Shown here: piece by piece, positions 5,771 to 16,304 of the stretch
Layout: each line of letters begins with the position of its first letter
Numbering within the stretch: the stretch's first letter is position 1
DNA from: Natrinema versiforme JCM 10478
Lineage (GTDB): Archaea > Halobacteriota > Halobacteria > Halobacteriales > Natrialbaceae
DNA: 64,000 nt
Reading direction: 5' to 3'
Assembly (NCBI RefSeq): GCF_000337195.1
Contig: NZ_AOID01000064.1
Coordinates: forward strand, 19,770-83,769
Program-made: the position numbers and the translations under genes
The notes under the pieces: generated by a model
Told to the model about the DNA's origin: nothing
Seen by the model: only the letters and a program-made list of their open reading frames with translations
Database searches by the model: none

Positions 5771-8344
5771 ATGAACGCAGATGACAGCTTGCCGGACCAA
5801 GCAGACACCGTTATCGTCGGTGCCGGTATCGTCGGGTGTAACCTGGCGTACCAGCTTACTGAACTCGGCCGGGACGATGTCGTCGTCGTCGATCAGGGAC
5901 CGATGCCGACCACTGGTGGCTCTTCCAGCCACGCGCCGGGGATCATGTTTCAGACCTCGGAGTCGAAGATCCTCTCGAAGTTCGCCAAATACAGCCGTAA
6001 CCTGTACTCGGACCTCGAGGACGACAACGGGGTGCAGGCCTACAAGGAAGTCGGCGGCATCGAGGTTGCGCGGACCGACGAGCGCATGGACTACCTCCAG
6101 CGCCGCGTCGAGTGGGCGGAATCCTGGGGGCTCCCGAACCCGGAGATTCTTTCGCCCGAGGAAGTAGAAGAAAAGCTGCCGCTCGTCGACAGCGACGTGA
6201 TCCAGGGTGGGTACCACTCCCCGACTGACGGCCAAGTGTCCGGCGTCGTCGCCTGCGCTGCCCTCGCCAGAGAAGCCATGGACCGGGGAGCGACGTTCGT
6301 GCCACATACCCGCACCGAAGACATCGAAACGGAGAACGGGTCGGTCACCTCGGTCGCCACCGAAAACGGGACTATCGAGTGTAACGAAGTCGTCATCGCG
6401 ACGAACATCTGGGCGCGTCAACTCGGCGAGAAGCTCGACGTTCACCTCCCGGTGACGCCGGTCGAGCACCAATACACGATGACCGAGTCGCTCGAGGAGC
6501 TTGCCGACAACCAGATCGATGTCAGCGATCACCCGCTGTACGAGGGTTACAAGGACGTCTCCGGCGAGAAGACCGACCGCCTGCTCGCGAGCCCCGATCG
6601 GCCGATCCTCCGCGATCAGGACAACGCGATGTACTTCCGGACCCACGGGGACTCGTACGGAATCGGGTCGTACAACCACGAACCCGTCGTTCCGGACCCG
6701 CGGGAGCTCGGCGGCAACGAGGACGGCGGCGAACAGGGCTCGGTCCACGAGTTCACCGAGTACCACATGAACAACGCGACCCACCCGGACCGGCCGGACA
6801 AGGCCCCCCGCCAGGCCAGCGACGAACTGCTGCCGGCCACGGAGGGGAAGGAACTCGAACACAAGTACAACGGCATGTTCGCGGAGTCCCCCAACGGTCT
6901 GCCGGTGATGGGTCCCGTCCAGGAGTACGACGGTCTCTGGTCCGCGGCCGCCATTTGGGTCACTCACGCCGGCGGCGCTGGCAAGGCGCTCGCGGAGTGG
7001 ATGGAAAACGGCGTCCCCCGTCTCTCCGACGGCCCGATCGACCTCCGGCACTGCGACGTCAATCGGTTCGACGACCACGAAGGCAGCTGGGACTTCGCAC
7101 GGGACATCGGCGGCGAGGAGTACCGCATCGTCTACAACATCATGCACCCGAAGTGGGTCTGGACGGATCATCAGCGCGACATCCGCCGCACGCCCATGTA
7201 CCACAGCCACAAGGAACTCGATGCCGAGCTGTGGGCCGAAGCCGGGTGGGAGGAACCGCAGTGGTTCGAGTCCAACGCCGACCTGCTCGCCGAATACGGC
7301 GACCAGATCCCCGACCGTGAGGGCTGGGAAGGCAAGTACTGGTCGCCCATCGAGGGCGCGGAGGCGCTCCACGTCCGTAACAAGGTCGGCCTCCACGACA
7401 TGACGTCGTTCAACAAGATGGAGGTCATCGGGAGCGATGCCGGAGACTTCGTTCAGCGCCTCTGTACGAACGACATGAGCCTCGACGTCGGCGACGTCCG
7501 GTACACCTTGATGTGTAACGAGGAGGGCGGCATCCGTGCGGACATCACCGTCACGCGCGTCGACGACGACCGCTACCTCATTCTGACGACCGGTCGCGAG
7601 GTCGGAAACAACCACGTCGCGTGGGTCCGCGAGCAGTCCCCCGAGGACGTGGTCGTCAACGACGTTACCTCGAGCCTGGCGGCGATGGTCTGTACCGGTC
7701 CGAACGCGCGGAAGGTGCTCTCGGAGGTGACGGACGCGGACCTCTCCGATGAGGCGTTCCCGTTCTTCACAAGTCAGCAGTTCTTCGTCAAGAACGTGCC
7801 TGTCACCGCACTCCGCGTGTCCTACGCCGGCGAACTCGGCTGGGAGCTGTACACGCCTGCCGAGTACGGCGAGCAACTCTGGGAGCATCTCATGGAGGCC
7901 GGCGAAGAGCACGACATTCGCCCGTATGGCAACGGTGCGCTGAACGCGCTGCGCATTGAGAAGGGCTTCCGGCTGTGGGGCGAGGACCTCCACACCGAGC
8001 ACAACCCCTACGAAGCGGACCTCGGGTGGGCCACCGACCTGGAGACCGACTTCATCGGGAAGGAAGCGGTCGTCGAAGCGGCCGAGGGGAACAACATCGA
8101 CCACAAGGTCGCGTGCCTGACCCTCGATGACGAAGCGGCGACGATCCTCCCTCACCGTCCGATCTTCGACGGTGACGAACGGATCGGCTACGTCCACAGC
8201 GCCGAGTACGGGTACACGGTCGGTGCCTGCGTCGTCTACACGTACCTCCCCCCGGAGTACGCAGAGCCCGGGACCGAACTCGAGATCAAGTACGAGGGCG
8301 ACCGGTACGACGCCACCGTTCGCGAGGAACCGCTCCTCGATTAA
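5771..8344 (+). CDS. FAD oxidoreductase-GcvT fusion, dimethylglycine/sarcosine dehydrogenase type
   Basis: The 857-residue protein removes an N-methyl group from dimethylglycine or sarcosine and hands it to tetrahydrofolate as methylene-THF. An N-terminal DAO-type FAD domain opens with VIVGAGIVGCN (GxGxxG near residues 17-22), followed by a GGSSSHAPG segment whose His (about residue 58) is at the place of flavin attachment in this family. A linker domain follows, then a GcvT-like folate-binding domain from about residue 520 to the end with a C-terminal barrel. The start MNADD follows the TATA-like tract at 5731-5739 with a leader of about ten bases. It is paralogous to the gene at 22276-24828; which of the two prefers dimethylglycine cannot be told from sequence. 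The nearby glyA, folD and BCCT genes fit this role. Confidence 0.9.
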   Translation: MNADDSLPDQADTVIVGAGIVGCNLAYQLTELGRDDVVVVDQGPMPTTGGSSSHAPGIMFQTSESKILSKFAKYSRNLYSDLEDDNGVQAYKEVGGIEVARTDERMDYLQRRVEWAESWGLPNPEILSPEEVEEKLPLVDSDVIQGGYHSPTDGQVSGVVACAALAREAMDRGATFVPHTRTEDIETENGSVTSVATENGTIECNEVVIATNIWARQLGEKLDVHLPVTPVEHQYTMTESLEELADNQIDVSDHPLYEGYKDVSGEKTDRLLASPDRPILRDQDNAMYFRTHGDSYGIGSYNHEPVVPDPRELGGNEDGGEQGSVHEFTEYHMNNATHPDRPDKAPRQASDELLPATEGKELEHKYNGMFAESPNGLPVMGPVQEYDGLWSAAAIWVTHAGGAGKALAEWMENGVPRLSDGPIDLRHCDVNRFDDHEGSWDFARDIGGEEYRIVYNIMHPKWVWTDHQRDIRRTPMYHSHKELDAELWAEAGWEEPQWFESNADLLAEYGDQIPDREGWEGKYWSPIEGAEALHVRNKVGLHDMTSFNKMEVIGSDAGDFVQRLCTNDMSLDVGDVRYTLMCNEEGGIRADITVTRVDDDRYLILTTGREVGNNHVAWVREQSPEDVVVNDVTSSLAAMVCTGPNARKVLSEVTDADLSDEAFPFFTSQQFFVKNVPVTALRVSYAGELGWELYTPAEYGEQLWEHLMEAGEEHDIRPYGNGALNALRIEKGFRLWGEDLHTEHNPYEADLGWATDLETDFIGKEAVVEAAEGNNIDHKVACLTLDDEAATILPHRPIFDGDERIGYVHSAEYGYTVGACVVYTYLPPEYAEPGTELEIKYEGDRYDATVREEPLLD

Positions 8345-8694
8345 AACGAGCGCATTTGGCGACACAATGTGATCTCGCGTCTGCCTTTTCTTTTCTTCTC
8401 GATGAGGGAGACGCTCTGTCGTGCGAGGGGAGTGATCACCGGCAGCGAAACCTGCTCGTATAATCGTACCTCGATCGGGGAAACGTAGTCCGGCGGGCAG
8501 TTGGCCTCGAGTTCACAGTGACGGCAGGAGCCCAATCTGCGACGCGACGTGTCTGTGGCCTCCTCGAAACGGTCGGTAACCGTCTCATCAAGTGCACTGA
8601 CGCGGTAAACGGCTATCGGCGAGTGGGGTCCGCGCGGTGCTGTCCGTTCGGTGACGAGATACTTTTTTACACTGCAAGGGGATACGTCCACTCC
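8345..8694. other. Intergenic region with a probable terminator
   Basis: These 350 bases hold a T-rich tract just after the FAD-GcvT gene and a TATA-like ATACTTTTTTAC about 30 bases before the AOR-like gene. A minus-strand frame of about 119 codons crosses it, but its codon use and lack of a recognisable domain make it unconvincing. Confidence 0.45.
8385..8399 (+). terminator. T-rich transcription terminator after the FAD-GcvT gene
   Basis: CTTTTCTTTTCTTCT begins about 40 bases after the stop codon. Archaeal termination depends mainly on such U-rich tracts. Confidence 0.4.
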
Positions 8695-10461
8695 ATGCAC
8701 CTTCGCGCGCCCGATCGACTCCTCCGCGTGGATCTCTCGACGGAGTCGGTGGACCGCGTTTCCGTTCCGGATGAGTGGCGACGACGCTACGTCGGCGGCA
8801 AGGGTCTCGGAGCGCGGTACCTCTACGAGGAACTGGACGCCGATACCGATCCGCTCGGGCCGAACAACGTCCTGCTGTTCATGCTCGGACCGGTCTCGGG
8901 ACTCCTGCCGGGAGAGAGTCGCTACGCGGCGATTACGAAGTCCCCGCTGACCGGGGGCTTCCTCGACTCGTACGCTGGCGGGACGTTCCCGGCAGTGCTC
9001 GCGGGTGCGTTACGCGACGCCAGTGGCATCCTCGTCACCGGGCAGGCGTCACAGCCAGTCCGACTCGTCGTGGCGGACGGAGACGTGGCTATCGAGCCAG
9101 CCGAGACCTGGGGTTCGGATACCGTCGCCACTGACGAGCATTTTTCCGATGCTGCAGTCGCCTGTGTCGGTCCTGCCGGGGAAAACCAGGTTGCCTACGC
9201 GACCATTTCGTCCGACGGTGGCGACCACCACGCCGGTCGGGGCGGCGCGGGTGCCGTGATGGGTGCCAAGCGGCTCAAGGCTGTCGTCGCCCGAGGCGAC
9301 CCCCCGTCGGGCCTCGAGGAACTGCGCGAGCGGTATGCGGAACGCTATCGCGAATCGGACACCGGCAAGTGGCTGCAAGCGAGCGGTACCGCCGAAACGG
9401 TCGATTTCGCCAACGAGACCGGCGTGCTCCCGACGCGGGGTTGGCAAGACGGGCAGTTCGAGGGCGCAGACGACATCGGCATCGCCGCCGTCCGCGAACT
9501 GGCGCGCGAGCGGGAGTACCCGGACGACGACCCCGGCGGATACCGAGTCGAGACCGACGCGGGCGAGAGCGTCCCCCGCGGTGCCACGGCGATGACGCTC
9601 GGCGCGGGCCTGGGCATCGACGACTTCGACGCCGTGGCGGAACTCGGGGCGACGTGTGACCGCCTCGGTATCGATCTGATCAGCGCCGGAAACACCGTCG
9701 CGTGGGCCGTCCGCGCCAGCGAGGCGAACCTGATCGATCGCTCGGTTGCGTTCGGCAATCCCGACGATGCACGATCACTTCTCCGCGGTATCGCAGCCCG
9801 AGAGACGACGCTCGGCGACGTACTGGCGGAGGGAGTCGACGCGGCGGCTGAGCGGTTCGGTGGCGACGACCTCGTGCCGACGGTCAAGGCGATGGAACTG
9901 CCGGCGTACGATCCCCGTGGTGCCGAAAGCATGGCGCTGGCTTATGCTACGAGCGATCGCGGCGCTTGCCACCGGCGAGCGATCCCGATCGAGCGGGAGA
10001 TCTTCGAGGACTGGAGTCCCGAGCGGGCCGCCCGCGCCGTCGCGACTGAACAGGACCAGCGATCGATCCTCTGGAGCCTGATCGTCGACGACTTCGTCGG
10101 CGATGTCTTTGAGGATCTCGGTGCCGAGTGGCTAGACGCCGTGGGGTTAGACACCGACGGAGACTTACGGACGATCGGGGAGCGCATCTGGACGCTCACC
10201 CGGTTGTTCAACGTTCGCGAGGGCGTCTCTCGAGCGGACGACGAACTCCCGCCCGCGCTCCGAACTCCCCTCGAGTCGGGGCCGAACGACGGGCAGTCGG
10301 TAGCCGAGGATCGCTTCGACGCGATGCTCGACGCCTACTACGCGGAGCGCGGGTGGGGAGCCGACGGCCGACCGGCTCGCGAAACGATCGACCGGCTCGG
10401 GTTGGACGAGGCCGTCGACGACGAGACGCCGCTGGCCGAGCACCCCATGGAACCGAACTGA
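8695..10461 (+). CDS. Aldehyde:ferredoxin oxidoreductase family protein lacking Fe-S ligands
   Basis: This is a tungsten/molybdopterin AOR homologue of 588 residues, slightly shorter than classical AORs. Family landmarks are present: YVGGKGLGARYLYEEL near residue 35, GRGGAGAVMGAKRLKAVV around 180-200, CDRLGIDLISAGN, and DPRGAESMALAYATSDRGACH near residue 410. The CxxCxxxC plus distal Cys that bind the [4Fe-4S] cluster in known AORs are absent; the stretch expected to carry them reads ETDAGESVPRGATAMT, and the distal Cys position falls in LWSLIVDDF. Only a few scattered cysteines remain. Electron transfer to ferredoxin by the standard route is therefore doubtful. The start MHLRAP is leaderless, 30 bases after a TATA-like tract. 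An aldehyde-oxidising role on formaldehyde would suit the island but is not proven. Confidence 0.85.
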   Translation: MHLRAPDRLLRVDLSTESVDRVSVPDEWRRRYVGGKGLGARYLYEELDADTDPLGPNNVLLFMLGPVSGLLPGESRYAAITKSPLTGGFLDSYAGGTFPAVLAGALRDASGILVTGQASQPVRLVVADGDVAIEPAETWGSDTVATDEHFSDAAVACVGPAGENQVAYATISSDGGDHHAGRGGAGAVMGAKRLKAVVARGDPPSGLEELRERYAERYRESDTGKWLQASGTAETVDFANETGVLPTRGWQDGQFEGADDIGIAAVRELAREREYPDDDPGGYRVETDAGESVPRGATAMTLGAGLGIDDFDAVAELGATCDRLGIDLISAGNTVAWAVRASEANLIDRSVAFGNPDDARSLLRGIAARETTLGDVLAEGVDAAAERFGGDDLVPTVKAMELPAYDPRGAESMALAYATSDRGACHRRAIPIEREIFEDWSPERAARAVATEQDQRSILWSLIVDDFVGDVFEDLGAEWLDAVGLDTDGDLRTIGERIWTLTRLFNVREGVSRADDELPPALRTPLESGPNDGQSVAEDRFDAMLDAYYAERGWGADGRPARETIDRLGLDEAVDDETPLAEHPMEPN

Positions 10462-11448: not shown

Positions 11449-12972
11449 ATGAAACGGGGTACAAGTACCGCTGGTCGCTCACCGCTCGTCCGCGTCGCGA
11501 CCGACGTAGCGGCGAACGACGACGAACAGGTCGTGACGGCGATGCGAGACGAAGCCGAGTCGATACCGGTGGTCCGTACGGGATCAACCGGTGTAACGGG
11601 GAGCGAACCGCTCGTGATGGCGACGCACGAGGGGCAAACGGCGTTCTTCGCCAAACCGGAGCCGTCGACCGCTCGAGACCTCGTTGCCACACTGGAAGAC
11701 GGATCCATCCCAGCGGCTGACGCTGATGCGGTCGTCGAACACGAGCCCGAGACGACATCGCTTCCGATCCCGAACACGGGACCGCTCTCGATCGGCCAGC
11801 GATCGGTGCTCGGCCGGTGTGGCTGGGCCGATCCGCTCGAGCCGAACGAGTGGCCGATCGTCTCGTCTGCTCGAGCCGCCGAGGCGGTGACCGATACCGG
11901 ACTCCTCGGTCGGGGGCGCGGCGACGCCGCTGCCGATGACCCCGTCGCCGACGTGTGGGAGACCGTTCGGGACGCGGACGGGGACCCGGTCGTGGTTGCC
12001 AATGCGAACGAGACACGCGACGAACAGCGGGGGGACGAGGTGCTGCTCGGCGGCGCGCCGATCGCCGTCCTCGACGGGATCGCGGCCGTCGCCGAGTACG
12101 TGGGTGCCGACGACGCCGTCGTCTACCTGAACGAAGCGGATAGCCATCTCCATCGACACCTCCGCGAAGCGATCGATGCAGTTGCCGACGAACTGCCGAT
12201 CGTTCCGCAGCTGGTCGCCGGCCCCGACGAGTACCGGGCCGGTGCCCCGACGGCCGCGCTCGAGGCGATGGAAGGTGCCGACCGGATCGAACCGCGCCTC
12301 CAGCCGCCGTCACCCGCCATGCACGGTCTCTACGGACGACCGACGGTCATCCATACGCCGCGGACGTTCGCACAAGTACGGCAGGCGATCCGCGATCCGG
12401 ACGCCTTCGACGCGAACGCCGCCGACCCGGGCACTCGGCTGATCACTGTCGCCGGCGATGTCGCTGACCCGGCGACCATCGAACTCCCGTCGGACAGCAG
12501 TCTTTCGGTGGGACGAGACGCCGTCGAACTGATAGGGTCGTTCAAGATGGCCTGCGCCGGCGGGATCCTCGGCGGTATCACGCGGGACCTCGATGTCGCC
12601 CCGACCGCACAGTCGCTCGCTGCGGCCGGTCTCGGGACCGACGGCGTCGTCGAATTGCTGAACGACGACCGGTGCGTGGTCGCCGATGTCGGCGAGCGCG
12701 CTCGATTCGCGTCCACCGAGAACAGCGGCCGCTGCGTGCCCGGCCGCGAAGGGACGAAACAGCTCACCGAACTCCTGCGAGACGTCTATCAGGGATCGCT
12801 CGAGGCCGACGCGATCCGCGAACTGGCTCGAGTCATGGCACGGTCGAGCAACTGCCAGATCGGCGCTCACGCGCCCCGTCCCGTGACGACCGCGCTCGAC
12901 GAGTTCGAATCCGAGTTCCACGCACACGCTGACGGTCGCTGTCCCAGCGGCACCTGTACTGAGAACCTATGA
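11449..12972 (+). CDS. NuoF/FdhB-like subunit with degenerate cofactor motifs
   Basis: The 507-residue protein aligns over its second half with the NADH-binding 51-kDa subunit (NuoF/FdsB/HoxF). PRLQPPSPAMHGLYGRPTVIHTPRTFAQV near residue 285 and GSFKMACAGGILGG near residue 365 match that family. The N3-cluster motif, normally ESCGxCxPCR plus a distal Cys, here reads ENSGRCVPGR with the distal Cys kept in NCQIGAHAP, so two of four ligands are lost. The FMN loop (usually GRGGAGFP) is reduced to GRGRGDAAA and the acidic NADH-binding loop is not recognisable. It overlaps the formate dehydrogenase gene by four bases (ATGA), so the products probably form one complex, with this subunit perhaps structural or using another acceptor. 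The start fits a leaderless message. Confidence 0.8.
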   Translation: MKRGTSTAGRSPLVRVATDVAANDDEQVVTAMRDEAESIPVVRTGSTGVTGSEPLVMATHEGQTAFFAKPEPSTARDLVATLEDGSIPAADADAVVEHEPETTSLPIPNTGPLSIGQRSVLGRCGWADPLEPNEWPIVSSARAAEAVTDTGLLGRGRGDAAADDPVADVWETVRDADGDPVVVANANETRDEQRGDEVLLGGAPIAVLDGIAAVAEYVGADDAVVYLNEADSHLHRHLREAIDAVADELPIVPQLVAGPDEYRAGAPTAALEAMEGADRIEPRLQPPSPAMHGLYGRPTVIHTPRTFAQVRQAIRDPDAFDANAADPGTRLITVAGDVADPATIELPSDSSLSVGRDAVELIGSFKMACAGGILGGITRDLDVAPTAQSLAAAGLGTDGVVELLNDDRCVVADVGERARFASTENSGRCVPGREGTKQLTELLRDVYQGSLEADAIRELARVMARSSNCQIGAHAPRPVTTALDEFESEFHAHADGRCPSGTCTENL

Positions 12973-15900
12973 GCACTGACCACACACTTCCAGGCGTTCC
13001 CGATATCGAAGACTCGCAACCGAATACGCCGGTCACCGCTACGTTCGAGACCGGCACCGCGAACGACCCCGACGTCGGCACCGACGGCGACGAGTCGACG
13101 ACGGTGACGATCAACGGCGAACCGGTGACCGTCCCGCCGGATTCGACCGTTATCGACGCGATGCAGGCCGTCAGCGACGAGACGGTCAGCGTCGACCCCG
13201 GTGCGGATGGTGTCGAGGACGACGCCGATGTCCCCGCACTCTGCTACTACGACCGGGATGGCGATTGCAGCGGTGAGATCGGCCCGCGAAGTGAGTGCCG
13301 GACCTGTATGGTCGAGACCGACGAGCACGGGCTCGTTCCCTCGTGTTCGTTCCCGGCCGAAGACGGGCTCTCCGTGCAGACGGACACGCCGGATGCCGAG
13401 GAAACTCGGAGCGTCAACCTCGATCTAGTCCTCTCGAACCACAACCTCCGGTGTACGACCTGCAACGGCAACGGCCGCTGCGAACTGCAGGACACCGCTA
13501 TCAGCGAGGGCGTCGACCATCCGCGCTATGGGGTCTTCGACGACCGTGACGAGTACGAACCCCTCGACGACAGTTCGTCGTTCATCCAGATCGACCGGAA
13601 CAAGTGCATCCTCTGTAATCGGTGCGTCGAGGGCTGTAACGACGTGCAGGTCGAAGGCGTGCTTCGAATCGAGGGCCACGGCGAGGACACCCGCATCGGC
13701 TTCCAGTCCGACGCCGAGACGATGGCCGACTCCGACTGCGTCTCCTGTGGTCACTGTGCGACCGTCTGTCCGACCGGCGCGCTGACGGAGAAGGACATCG
13801 GCGGCGCTGCGACGCTTCCGCTTCCGGGATTCACCCAGCGTAACTCCATTGGAACGGTTATGGAACACGAGGCGGCCGAAACGCTCGACGACACAACGGC
13901 ACCGAACCGCTCGCCCGACCCCGGCGGAGAGGGTCGGATCGGAGCCAGCCCCAGCGTGAGCCCGGACGATCGAAGCGGCGTCGCCCGATTCATGGCACAA
14001 AGCAGGCACCGTGCGCTGGACCTCGCCACGGAGTACGGTCGGAAAGCCATGCTGGCCGGCGAACACACCGCCGAGAACGTTGCCGCGACGGTGCTCCCCG
14101 AGGGACGACTGTTCGATGTCGCGTCGGCCGTGAGCGGCTACCGACTCGGTAAGGTCGACACGGAGGAGACGACGTGTGGGTTCTGTGCTGTCGGCTGTCG
14201 GTTCGAGATGTGGGGCAAGGACGGCGACGCGATCGGTGTCCAACCCGTCGACGATCCCGCCCAGGCACCCGCCAACAATTTCTCGACCTGCGTGAAAGGG
14301 AAGTTCGGCCACGAGTTCGCCAACAGCGACGAGCGGCTCACGGAACCGCTCGTGCGCAACGACGACGGCGAGTTCGAGACGGCGTCCTGGGACGAGGCGC
14401 TCGATCGCGTCGCGAGCGAACTGCGCGCGATCCAGGACGACCACGGCGTCGACGCGGTCGGCTGTCTCGCGTCGTCGAAGGGGAGCAACGAGGAGGCCTA
14501 TCTCGTCCAGAAGTTCGCCCGACAGGTCCTCGGCACGAAAAACATCGACAACTGTGCGCGGCTCTGTCATTCGACGACAGTGGCGGCGCTGCAACAGACC
14601 CTCGGGTACGGTGCCATGACCAACCGTATCAACGAGGACGTCGGTGAGGCCGACGCCTACCTCATCTCCGGGTCGAACACGACGGAGTCGCATCCGGTCT
14701 TGGCAACCCGGATCAAGCAAAACGTCCGAGACGGGGCCGACCTGGTCGTCTTCGACCCCCGTGAAGTCGGCATCGCCGAGCACGCAGACCAATACACGCG
14801 GACCAAACCCGGGTACGATGTCGCCTGGCTCAACGGGCTCATTCGATATATCGTCGAGAACGATCTCCACGACGAGGCGTTCATCGAGCGCAACACGAAG
14901 GGATTCGAGAAAGTCAGGGAGAAGGTGCAGGCATTTACGCCCGAGAAAGTCGAAGAAATGGCGGGTGTCCCGCCCGAAGAGCTCAAGTCCGCCGCCGAGA
15001 CGCTCGCCGACGCCGAGACCGTCGTCTTCGGCTGGGCGATGGGGATGACCCAGTCCAGCCACGGCACGCAGAACCTCCTCGCGATGGCCGATCTCGCACT
15101 CGCGCTCGGCCAGCTCGGCAAGCCCGGTGCCGGACTCTCACCCTTCCGGGGCCAGAACAACGTCCAGGGCGGCGGTGGCGACATGGGGACGCTCCCCGGA
15201 AGCCTTCCAGGGTATCAGGACCCAGCGGACCCCGAAGTCGCCGAGAAGTTCGAAAACGCATGGGACACGCGTCCGCCCGAGGAACCGGGGCTCAAGGTGC
15301 CGGAGATGCTCTCGGAGGCCCACGAAGGGAACCTGCGGGGCATGTACGTCGTCGGAGAAAACCCCGCGCTGTCCGAACCCGACATCCAGCACGCCGAAGA
15401 AGCACTCGAGAAACTCGAGTTCCTCGTCGTCCAGGACATCTTCATGACGGAGACGGCGACGCACGCGGACGTAATCTTGCCCGCAGCGACATCGCCGGAG
15501 AAACACGGCACGTTCACGAACACCGAGCGCCGCATCCAGCGGGTGCGCCCGACTGCGACACCGCCCGGGACGGCGCGCCAAGACTGGGAGATCACGCAGG
15601 ATCTGGCCAACCGGCTCGGGTGGGACTGGGACTACGACCATCCGCGGGAGGTCATGGACGAGATCAGCGACCTCACCCCGATCTACGGCGGTGTCAGCTA
15701 CGACCGCATCGAATCGGGCGACGAGCACGGACTCCAGTGGCCCTGCTGGGACGAAGCGCACCCCGGAACGCCGTACCTCTACGATTACGAGGACGGGGAG
15801 TTCAACTTCGACGACGGCAAGGCGCGGTTCGTGCCCGCGGACGGCGGCCACCCCGGCGAGTTACCTAGCGAAGAGTATCCGCTCACGCTCACCTCCGGGC

Positions 15901-16304
15901 GGGTGCTCTACCACTGGCACACCGGCCAGATCACCCGGCGCGTCGAGGGGCTCATGAGCCACGTCGGCGAGAGCTTCGTCGAGATCAACCCGTCGACGGC
16001 CGCCGACCTCGGCGTCGAAGACGGCGAGTACGTCCGGGTCGAGTCCCGCCGTGGCAACATCGTCGTCAAGGCGACCGTGACCGACCGCATCGGCGAGGGG
16101 ACGCTGTTCATCCCGATGCACTTCGCTGCCGGCGCGGTCAACAAGCTCACTCAGGAGAGCTTCGACCCGCACACCGGCATTCCCGAGTACAAGGTCTCGA
16201 GCGTCCGTCTCGAACCGCTCGGATCGGACGCCGATCCGGACGTGCTGCGGGCACCCGACGCCGGAGCCGATAGCGGTGCCAGCACCTCGGCCAGCGACGA
16301 CTGA
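12969..16304 (+). CDS. fdhA: Formate dehydrogenase catalytic subunit, NuoG-type N-terminus
   Basis: The 1111-residue molybdopterin oxidoreductase oxidises formate to CO2. In order it has a [2Fe-2S] ferredoxin domain (ECRTCMVE region, about residues 40-145), a His-Cys3 motif (NLRCTTCNGNGRC), two [4Fe-4S] motifs (CILCNRCVEGC and CVSCGHCATVC, about 210-275), a CGFCAVGC cluster-binding motif at the start of the bis-MGD domain (about 400), and a C-terminal MopB domain. The catalytic residue is Cys, about residue 532 in NIDNCARLCHSTT, rather than selenocysteine. A Gly/Asp-rich tail is typical of haloarchaea. It starts inside the stop of the NuoF-like gene. In this island it would dispose of formate made from methyl groups through the folate route. 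An assignment to a related oxidoreductase is possible, but the ARxCH motif favours formate dehydrogenase. Confidence 0.9.
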   Translation: MSTDHTLPGVPDIEDSQPNTPVTATFETGTANDPDVGTDGDESTTVTINGEPVTVPPDSTVIDAMQAVSDETVSVDPGADGVEDDADVPALCYYDRDGDCSGEIGPRSECRTCMVETDEHGLVPSCSFPAEDGLSVQTDTPDAEETRSVNLDLVLSNHNLRCTTCNGNGRCELQDTAISEGVDHPRYGVFDDRDEYEPLDDSSSFIQIDRNKCILCNRCVEGCNDVQVEGVLRIEGHGEDTRIGFQSDAETMADSDCVSCGHCATVCPTGALTEKDIGGAATLPLPGFTQRNSIGTVMEHEAAETLDDTTAPNRSPDPGGEGRIGASPSVSPDDRSGVARFMAQSRHRALDLATEYGRKAMLAGEHTAENVAATVLPEGRLFDVASAVSGYRLGKVDTEETTCGFCAVGCRFEMWGKDGDAIGVQPVDDPAQAPANNFSTCVKGKFGHEFANSDERLTEPLVRNDDGEFETASWDEALDRVASELRAIQDDHGVDAVGCLASSKGSNEEAYLVQKFARQVLGTKNIDNCARLCHSTTVAALQQTLGYGAMTNRINEDVGEADAYLISGSNTTESHPVLATRIKQNVRDGADLVVFDPREVGIAEHADQYTRTKPGYDVAWLNGLIRYIVENDLHDEAFIERNTKGFEKVREKVQAFTPEKVEEMAGVPPEELKSAAETLADAETVVFGWAMGMTQSSHGTQNLLAMADLALALGQLGKPGAGLSPFRGQNNVQGGGGDMGTLPGSLPGYQDPADPEVAEKFENAWDTRPPEEPGLKVPEMLSEAHEGNLRGMYVVGENPALSEPDIQHAEEALEKLEFLVVQDIFMTETATHADVILPAATSPEKHGTFTNTERRIQRVRPTATPPGTARQDWEITQDLANRLGWDWDYDHPREVMDEISDLTPIYGGVSYDRIESGDEHGLQWPCWDEAHPGTPYLYDYEDGEFNFDDGKARFVPADGGHPGELPSEEYPLTLTSGRVLYHWHTGQITRRVEGLMSHVGESFVEINPSTAADLGVEDGEYVRVESRRGNIVVKATVTDRIGEGTLFIPMHFAAGAVNKLTQESFDPHTGIPEYKVSSVRLEPLGSDADPDVLRAPDAGADSGASTSASDD

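Follow-up and report, generated by a model that had tools for sequence, protein, structure and literature searches.

The window analysed here, a stretch of 64,000 nucleotides from Natrinema versiforme JCM 10478, carries in sequential order the genes for a dimethylglycine-type dehydrogenase, a homologue of the aldehyde:ferredoxin oxidoreductases (AORs), a NuoF-like protein and the formate dehydrogenase (FDH) FdhF, with SHMT and FolD genes further along. The genes and sites considered below are:

5780–8344, + strand: FAD-dependent dimethylglycine/sarcosine-type dehydrogenase with a GcvT domain, the upstream neighbour (start uncertain)
8695–10461, + strand: cluster-free AOR/WOR homologue, 588 aa
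9226–9231, + strand: His178-His179, replacing R182-A183 of Pyrococcus AOR before the kept AGRGG phosphate loop (H182 in 145/145 and H183 in 139/145 clade members)
9514–9543, + strand: lost CxxCxxxC site (C288, C291 and C295 of Pyrococcus AOR), here EYPDDDPGGY by alignment
9577–9585, + strand: R295-G296-A297, replacing E311-Y312-E313 beside the tungsten, from the clade alignment
10072–10095, + strand: W460..D465-D466-F467, replacing D489..C494-x-F, the second pterin motif and fourth cluster ligand (W and D each in 145/145 clade members)
11449–12972, + strand: NuoF-like FMN/Fe-S subunit upstream of fdhF, scoring below the NuoF equivalog cut-off
12969–16304, + strand: FDH alpha subunit (TIGR01591, 812.8 bits; cut-off 666)

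The wider region (3874–26004) is of a one-carbon/betaine type and holds a creatininase family gene, an HbpS-like gene, two FAD-GcvT dehydrogenases, FDH, RidA, SHMT, a BCCT transporter, a PLP enzyme and FolD. The same core as at the window locus is present on plasmid pHTUR02 of Haloterrigena turkmenica.

The frame of the AOR homologue runs from an ATG at 8695 to a stop codon at 10459–10461 with no internal stops, and a longer alternative frame begins with a GTG at 8518. Both the AFOR_N (3e-63, 213 bits) and AFOR_C (4e-97, 326 bits) domains of Pfam are matched end to end by the protein, and these are its only matches, the FdhD domain (PF02634) giving none. The nearest solved relatives by sequence are the AORs and FOR (E down to 3e-89). 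The AlphaFold model, which is confident (pLDDT 93.5, pTM 0.94), superposes in Foldseek on FOR at a TM of 0.91 and on AOR at 0.89, with FOR as the top match by E-value. Judged by its sequence, the 588-aa protein is a homologue within the AOR/WOR family. A phage search with the protein gave no matches.

Alignment with Pyrococcus AOR reveals that the protein has none of the four cysteine ligands of the [4Fe-4S] cluster present in known AORs: the region of C288, C291 and C295 reads EYPDDDPGGY, and C494 corresponds to Asp465. The original prediction that the protein is without the CxxCxxxC motif and the distal cysteine is borne out by this alignment and by the orthologues, as CxxCxxxC occurs in 0/145 distinct clade members and position 494 is Asp in every one of them. 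The motif is retained in all cluster-bearing relatives examined, including the three other AORs of the same genome. The absence of CxxCxxxC together with D494 in all 145 orthologues argues against both frame damage and chance, and a frame corrupted at the cluster site is ruled out as the cause of the cysteine loss by a reading frame that is intact and conserved across the clade. Nor was a replacement motif of the CxxC type found in the clade sequences; the three conserved cysteines (157, 321 and 425) are scattered along the sequence, two of them (321 and 425) also being Cys in most or many cluster-bearing AORs, and substitute cysteines near the pterin thus appear to be ruled out in the form of such a motif.

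The cysteine-less proteins form a conserved haloarchaeal clade, with a match at E<1e-150 in 201 of 391 Halobacteria genomes, mostly at ∼57% identity or more; with 23 further ambiguous genomes set aside, 201 clade-positive genomes may be compared with 167 clade-negative ones. Beyond Halobacteria, no match in a sample spanning the phylum exceeds 573 bits, and all of the best ones examined have the motif. Comparison of close pairs gives a dN/dS of 0.11–0.21, which shows purifying selection on the gene. A quick tree, calculated without bootstrap and with the cluster columns left out, recovers the clade as a single group (SH-aLRT 99), which rules out independent losses of the cluster. Its nearest outgroups are cluster-bearing haloarchaeal proteins (L179, L187 and L181), followed by L189 from another class. 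These sisters, at 42–45% identity, have Y93, D443 and an aromatic residue at 489 in common with the clade, and the three haloarchaeal ones also share HH at 182–183, but unlike the clade they retain CxxCxxxC, C494 and E311-Y312-E313. With the cluster ligands and E311-Y312-E313 intact in L179, L181 and L189, the cluster and these residues must have been lost on one branch, whereas N93→Y, N443→D and the loss of D489 are earlier changes that precede the loss of the cluster. At the four haloarchaeal sister loci examined there are no YqeC, MobA or FDH neighbours, and four genomes with only the sister type are without YqeC.

The substitutions extend beyond the cluster ligands. In Pyrococcus AOR numbering the clade exhibits E311→R (144/145), Y312→G, E313→A/G/S (all 145), D489→W, N93→Y and R182→H, changes that, by homology to known AORs, would be placed around the cofactor. 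A set of 19 cluster-bearing AORs shares 114 positions at a conservation of 80% or more, and the clade retains 76 of these; those lost or switched to a new constant residue include 288, 291, 295, 494, 311–313 and 182. R311, R449, R450, R339, H182 and W489 are new invariant or near-invariant residues, and the pocket therefore seems to have moved to new invariant states and not to have decayed, with which a new catalytic function would also fit. The tungstopterin-binding landmarks, said in the original prediction to be kept, are so only in part. The RGG phosphate loop and first pterin motif (G185, R186, G188, G190, R76 and D343) as well as K82 are present, whereas WxLxxDDF stands in place of the second pterin motif D489..C494 (W489 and D494 in 145/145), and N93 and A183, whose main chains are given as Mg ligands of the AOR family in reviews (PMC12096430, PMC13328260), are Y and H. 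The same reviews describe T243, E313, Y427 and H448 as a conserved second shell, of which the clade retains T243, Y427 and H448; the residue replaced is E313, for which PMC12096430 gives a proposed role as the proton acceptor of AOR.

We surveyed the genes within 6 kb of the AOR homologue at 80 named loci and in the window (81 loci). At least one YqeC, MobA-like, FdhF-like, NuoF-like, TorD-like or HdrA-like gene is present at 66/81 loci, in several gene orders (YqeC at 33, MobA-like at 22, FdhF-like at 42, NuoF-like at 15, TorD-like at 28 and HdrA-like at 23), and 15/81 have no such neighbour. The YqeC neighbours score above the NCBIfam cut-off, the MobA-like neighbour has MobA as its best match at a score under the equivalog cut-off, and the TorD-like neighbour matches Nitrate_red_del and TorD-type models. 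None of these genes adjoins the three canonical AORs of the same genome (L208–L210), L211 or four cluster-bearing sisters (L213–L216), so that a generic AOR neighbourhood is not supported by the control loci, with one exception (L212, 873–11026), where a cluster-bearing AOR of another type adjoins an FDH-like MopB protein and TorD-like and HdrA-like genes. At L076 (14173–16308) and similar loci, a polyferredoxin/FlpD-type (HdrA-like) protein and a TorD-like chaperone lie beside an FDH-like MopB protein of ∼1000 aa that has a Tat-like N-terminus and scores below the FDH cut-off. Three short uncharacterised families (g356, s91 and s128, the last with no Pfam match) follow the AOR gene at 21–32 of the 81 loci (e.g. 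L245, 8438–10135). YqeC, MobA-like, FdhF and NuoF-like genes also occur together at L217 (7608–13572) and L218 (8221–16062), in genomes without a cluster-free AOR, which suggests that YqeC, a selenium-cofactor marker by name, is FDH-linked in haloarchaea.

The association persists at the level of whole genomes. YqeC is found in 200/201 clade-positive versus 54/167 clade-negative genomes (ambiguous genomes left out), and FDH alpha in 192/201 versus 83/167. In all 15 genera in which YqeC is variable (large genera being represented by some members), the clade-positive genomes have YqeC and its absences are confined to clade-negative ones. Eight of the nine clade-positive genomes without an FDH alpha above the TIGR01591 cut-off carry a sub-cut-off FDH-like MopB protein, which brings FDH-type enzymes to 200/201; the ninth (G315) is 89% complete. 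YqeC is also present in 49/79 genomes with only canonical AORs versus 5/88 without any AOR match, a lower frequency than in the clade, and shared Mo/W metabolism thus explains part of the YqeC link. Co-occurrence and co-location with FDH and Moco genes are both as expected of a role in FDH maturation, and both are partly confounded. A search for FdhD (PF02634) gave no match in any of 50 haloarchaeal genomes, clade-positive and clade-negative alike, and recovered it in 8 of 14 control genomes, including 3 other archaea. Most of these 50 genomes carry an FDH. As 83 clade-negative genomes have FDH, with those tested also lacking FdhD, the clade protein is not needed for FDH generally.

With the electron exit and the proton acceptor gone, the phosphate loop kept, a linkage to YqeC, MobA-like and FDH genes, and no FdhD, the reading that we rate highest, tentatively and from genome context, is that the protein binds a cofactor and acts as a maturation factor or carrier for FDH-type enzymes rather than as an aldehyde:ferredoxin oxidoreductase. 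FdhD normally sulfurates the FDH cofactor and delivers bis-MGD to FDH (PMC13197769), the AOR-fold protein YdhV carries bis-Mo-MPT, from which MobA makes bis-MGD (PMC9103625), and the role of YqeC is still uncertain (PMC11448449). A homologue of the AOR/WOR tungstopterin enzymes would accordingly have left aldehyde:ferredoxin chemistry while still binding the bis-pterin Mo/W cofactor, or a precursor, without turning it over. Bis-Mo/W-MPT, the form bound by AOR-fold proteins and guanylylated by MobA, would be held or handed on, with YqeC and the MobA-like protein, for MopB formate dehydrogenases, and such a carrier could partly stand in for the FdhD sulfurase, for which the tested haloarchaea gave no match. 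The fuller proposal, in which an AOR-fold enzyme became a non-catalytic bis-Mo/W-pterin carrier in haloarchaea and, together with YqeC and the MobA-like protein, matures FDH without FdhD, is advanced with greater reserve, as one possibility. The loss of the second pterin motif is a point against a carrier. FdhD and TorD-type maturation chaperones, of a fold unrelated to that of the clade protein, would be comparable by functional analogy only, through the genomic tie to FDH and the proposed cofactor handling.

The main rival reading is a cluster-free C1 oxidoreductase. Such an enzyme would supply the adjoining FDH with formate made from formaldehyde or a similar C1 compound, and its metal cofactor would donate the electrons to a partner protein with no cluster in between. 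Cluster-free DMSO-reductase-type enzymes transfer electrons directly in this manner, and the gene order of the window with SHMT and FolD beyond, a formaldehyde-dehydrogenase-like ADH or folate genes at some loci, the retained T243, Y427 and H448, and the rank of FOR in Foldseek are all consistent with such an enzyme. We nevertheless consider it unlikely, as many loci have YqeC, MobA-like, TorD-like and FDH genes but no C1 genes close by, and as the proton acceptor proposed in PMC12096430 is substituted throughout the clade, with R at 311 in 144 members. Either consequence drawn in the original prediction, another path for the electrons or non-redox or hydride-type chemistry, may hold. The branch that lost the cluster also lost E311 and E313, the acids on the substrate side of AOR, and the ties of the gene to YqeC, MobA-like and FDH genes make cofactor handling no less likely than an oxidoreductase with altered chemistry.

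The new invariant and near-invariant residues suggest a rebuilt pocket and, with the low dN/dS, could instead point to a non-redox or internal-redox enzyme on the Mo/W-pterin cofactor, a reading put forward in the original prediction, in which here the clade arginines would hold a new anionic substrate; the neighbours suggest no substrate, however, and this reading alone does not account for the link to YqeC and FDH, which makes it improbable. To a similar degree, we doubt that the protein is a scaffold devoid of any metal-pterin that serves as a structural partner or binds another ligand such as a folate. The loss of the second pterin motif, of every cluster ligand and of N93 and A183 at the Mg site would agree with a scaffold, as would the folate genes near some loci, but the RGG loop, R76, K82 and D343 are retained, and D489 is also lost in the cluster-bearing sisters, so that its loss alone is no proof of cofactor loss.

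Compared with AOR and FOR of Pyrococcus furiosus and the AOR/WOR family (Class I WorL), the clade protein has both AFOR domains, the predicted fold (TM 0.89–0.91), the phosphate loop and T243, Y427 and H448 in common, and differs in the missing [4Fe-4S] ligands, the missing E311 and E313 and the replaced second pterin motif. YdhV of E. coli and BamB, compared here from the literature only, are AOR-family proteins reported to be without the usual second-shell residues, YdhV carrying bis-Mo-MPT; unlike the clade protein, both fall within cluster-containing clades and coordinate the metal with an additional Cys (PMC12096430, PMC9103625). With its cluster ligands absent and its second shell incomplete, the protein should not be annotated as an aldehyde:ferredoxin oxidoreductase.

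In a 2026 classification and a 2025 review (PMC13328260, PMC12096430), the cluster and the cofactor-site residues are described as conserved across the family, and their available text makes no mention of a clade of this kind. The literature searched held no description of a cluster-free AOR clade, which may be hidden among those of Class I in the published set of 92 WOR clades. The family rule as described is broken by a large clade that has neither the cluster nor the catalytic acid, and whose genes bear AOR-domain names. The tie to YqeC and FDH makes two questions testable in haloarchaea, namely how FDH matures without FdhD and what YqeC does. If true, the carrier reading would represent a new route of cofactor delivery.
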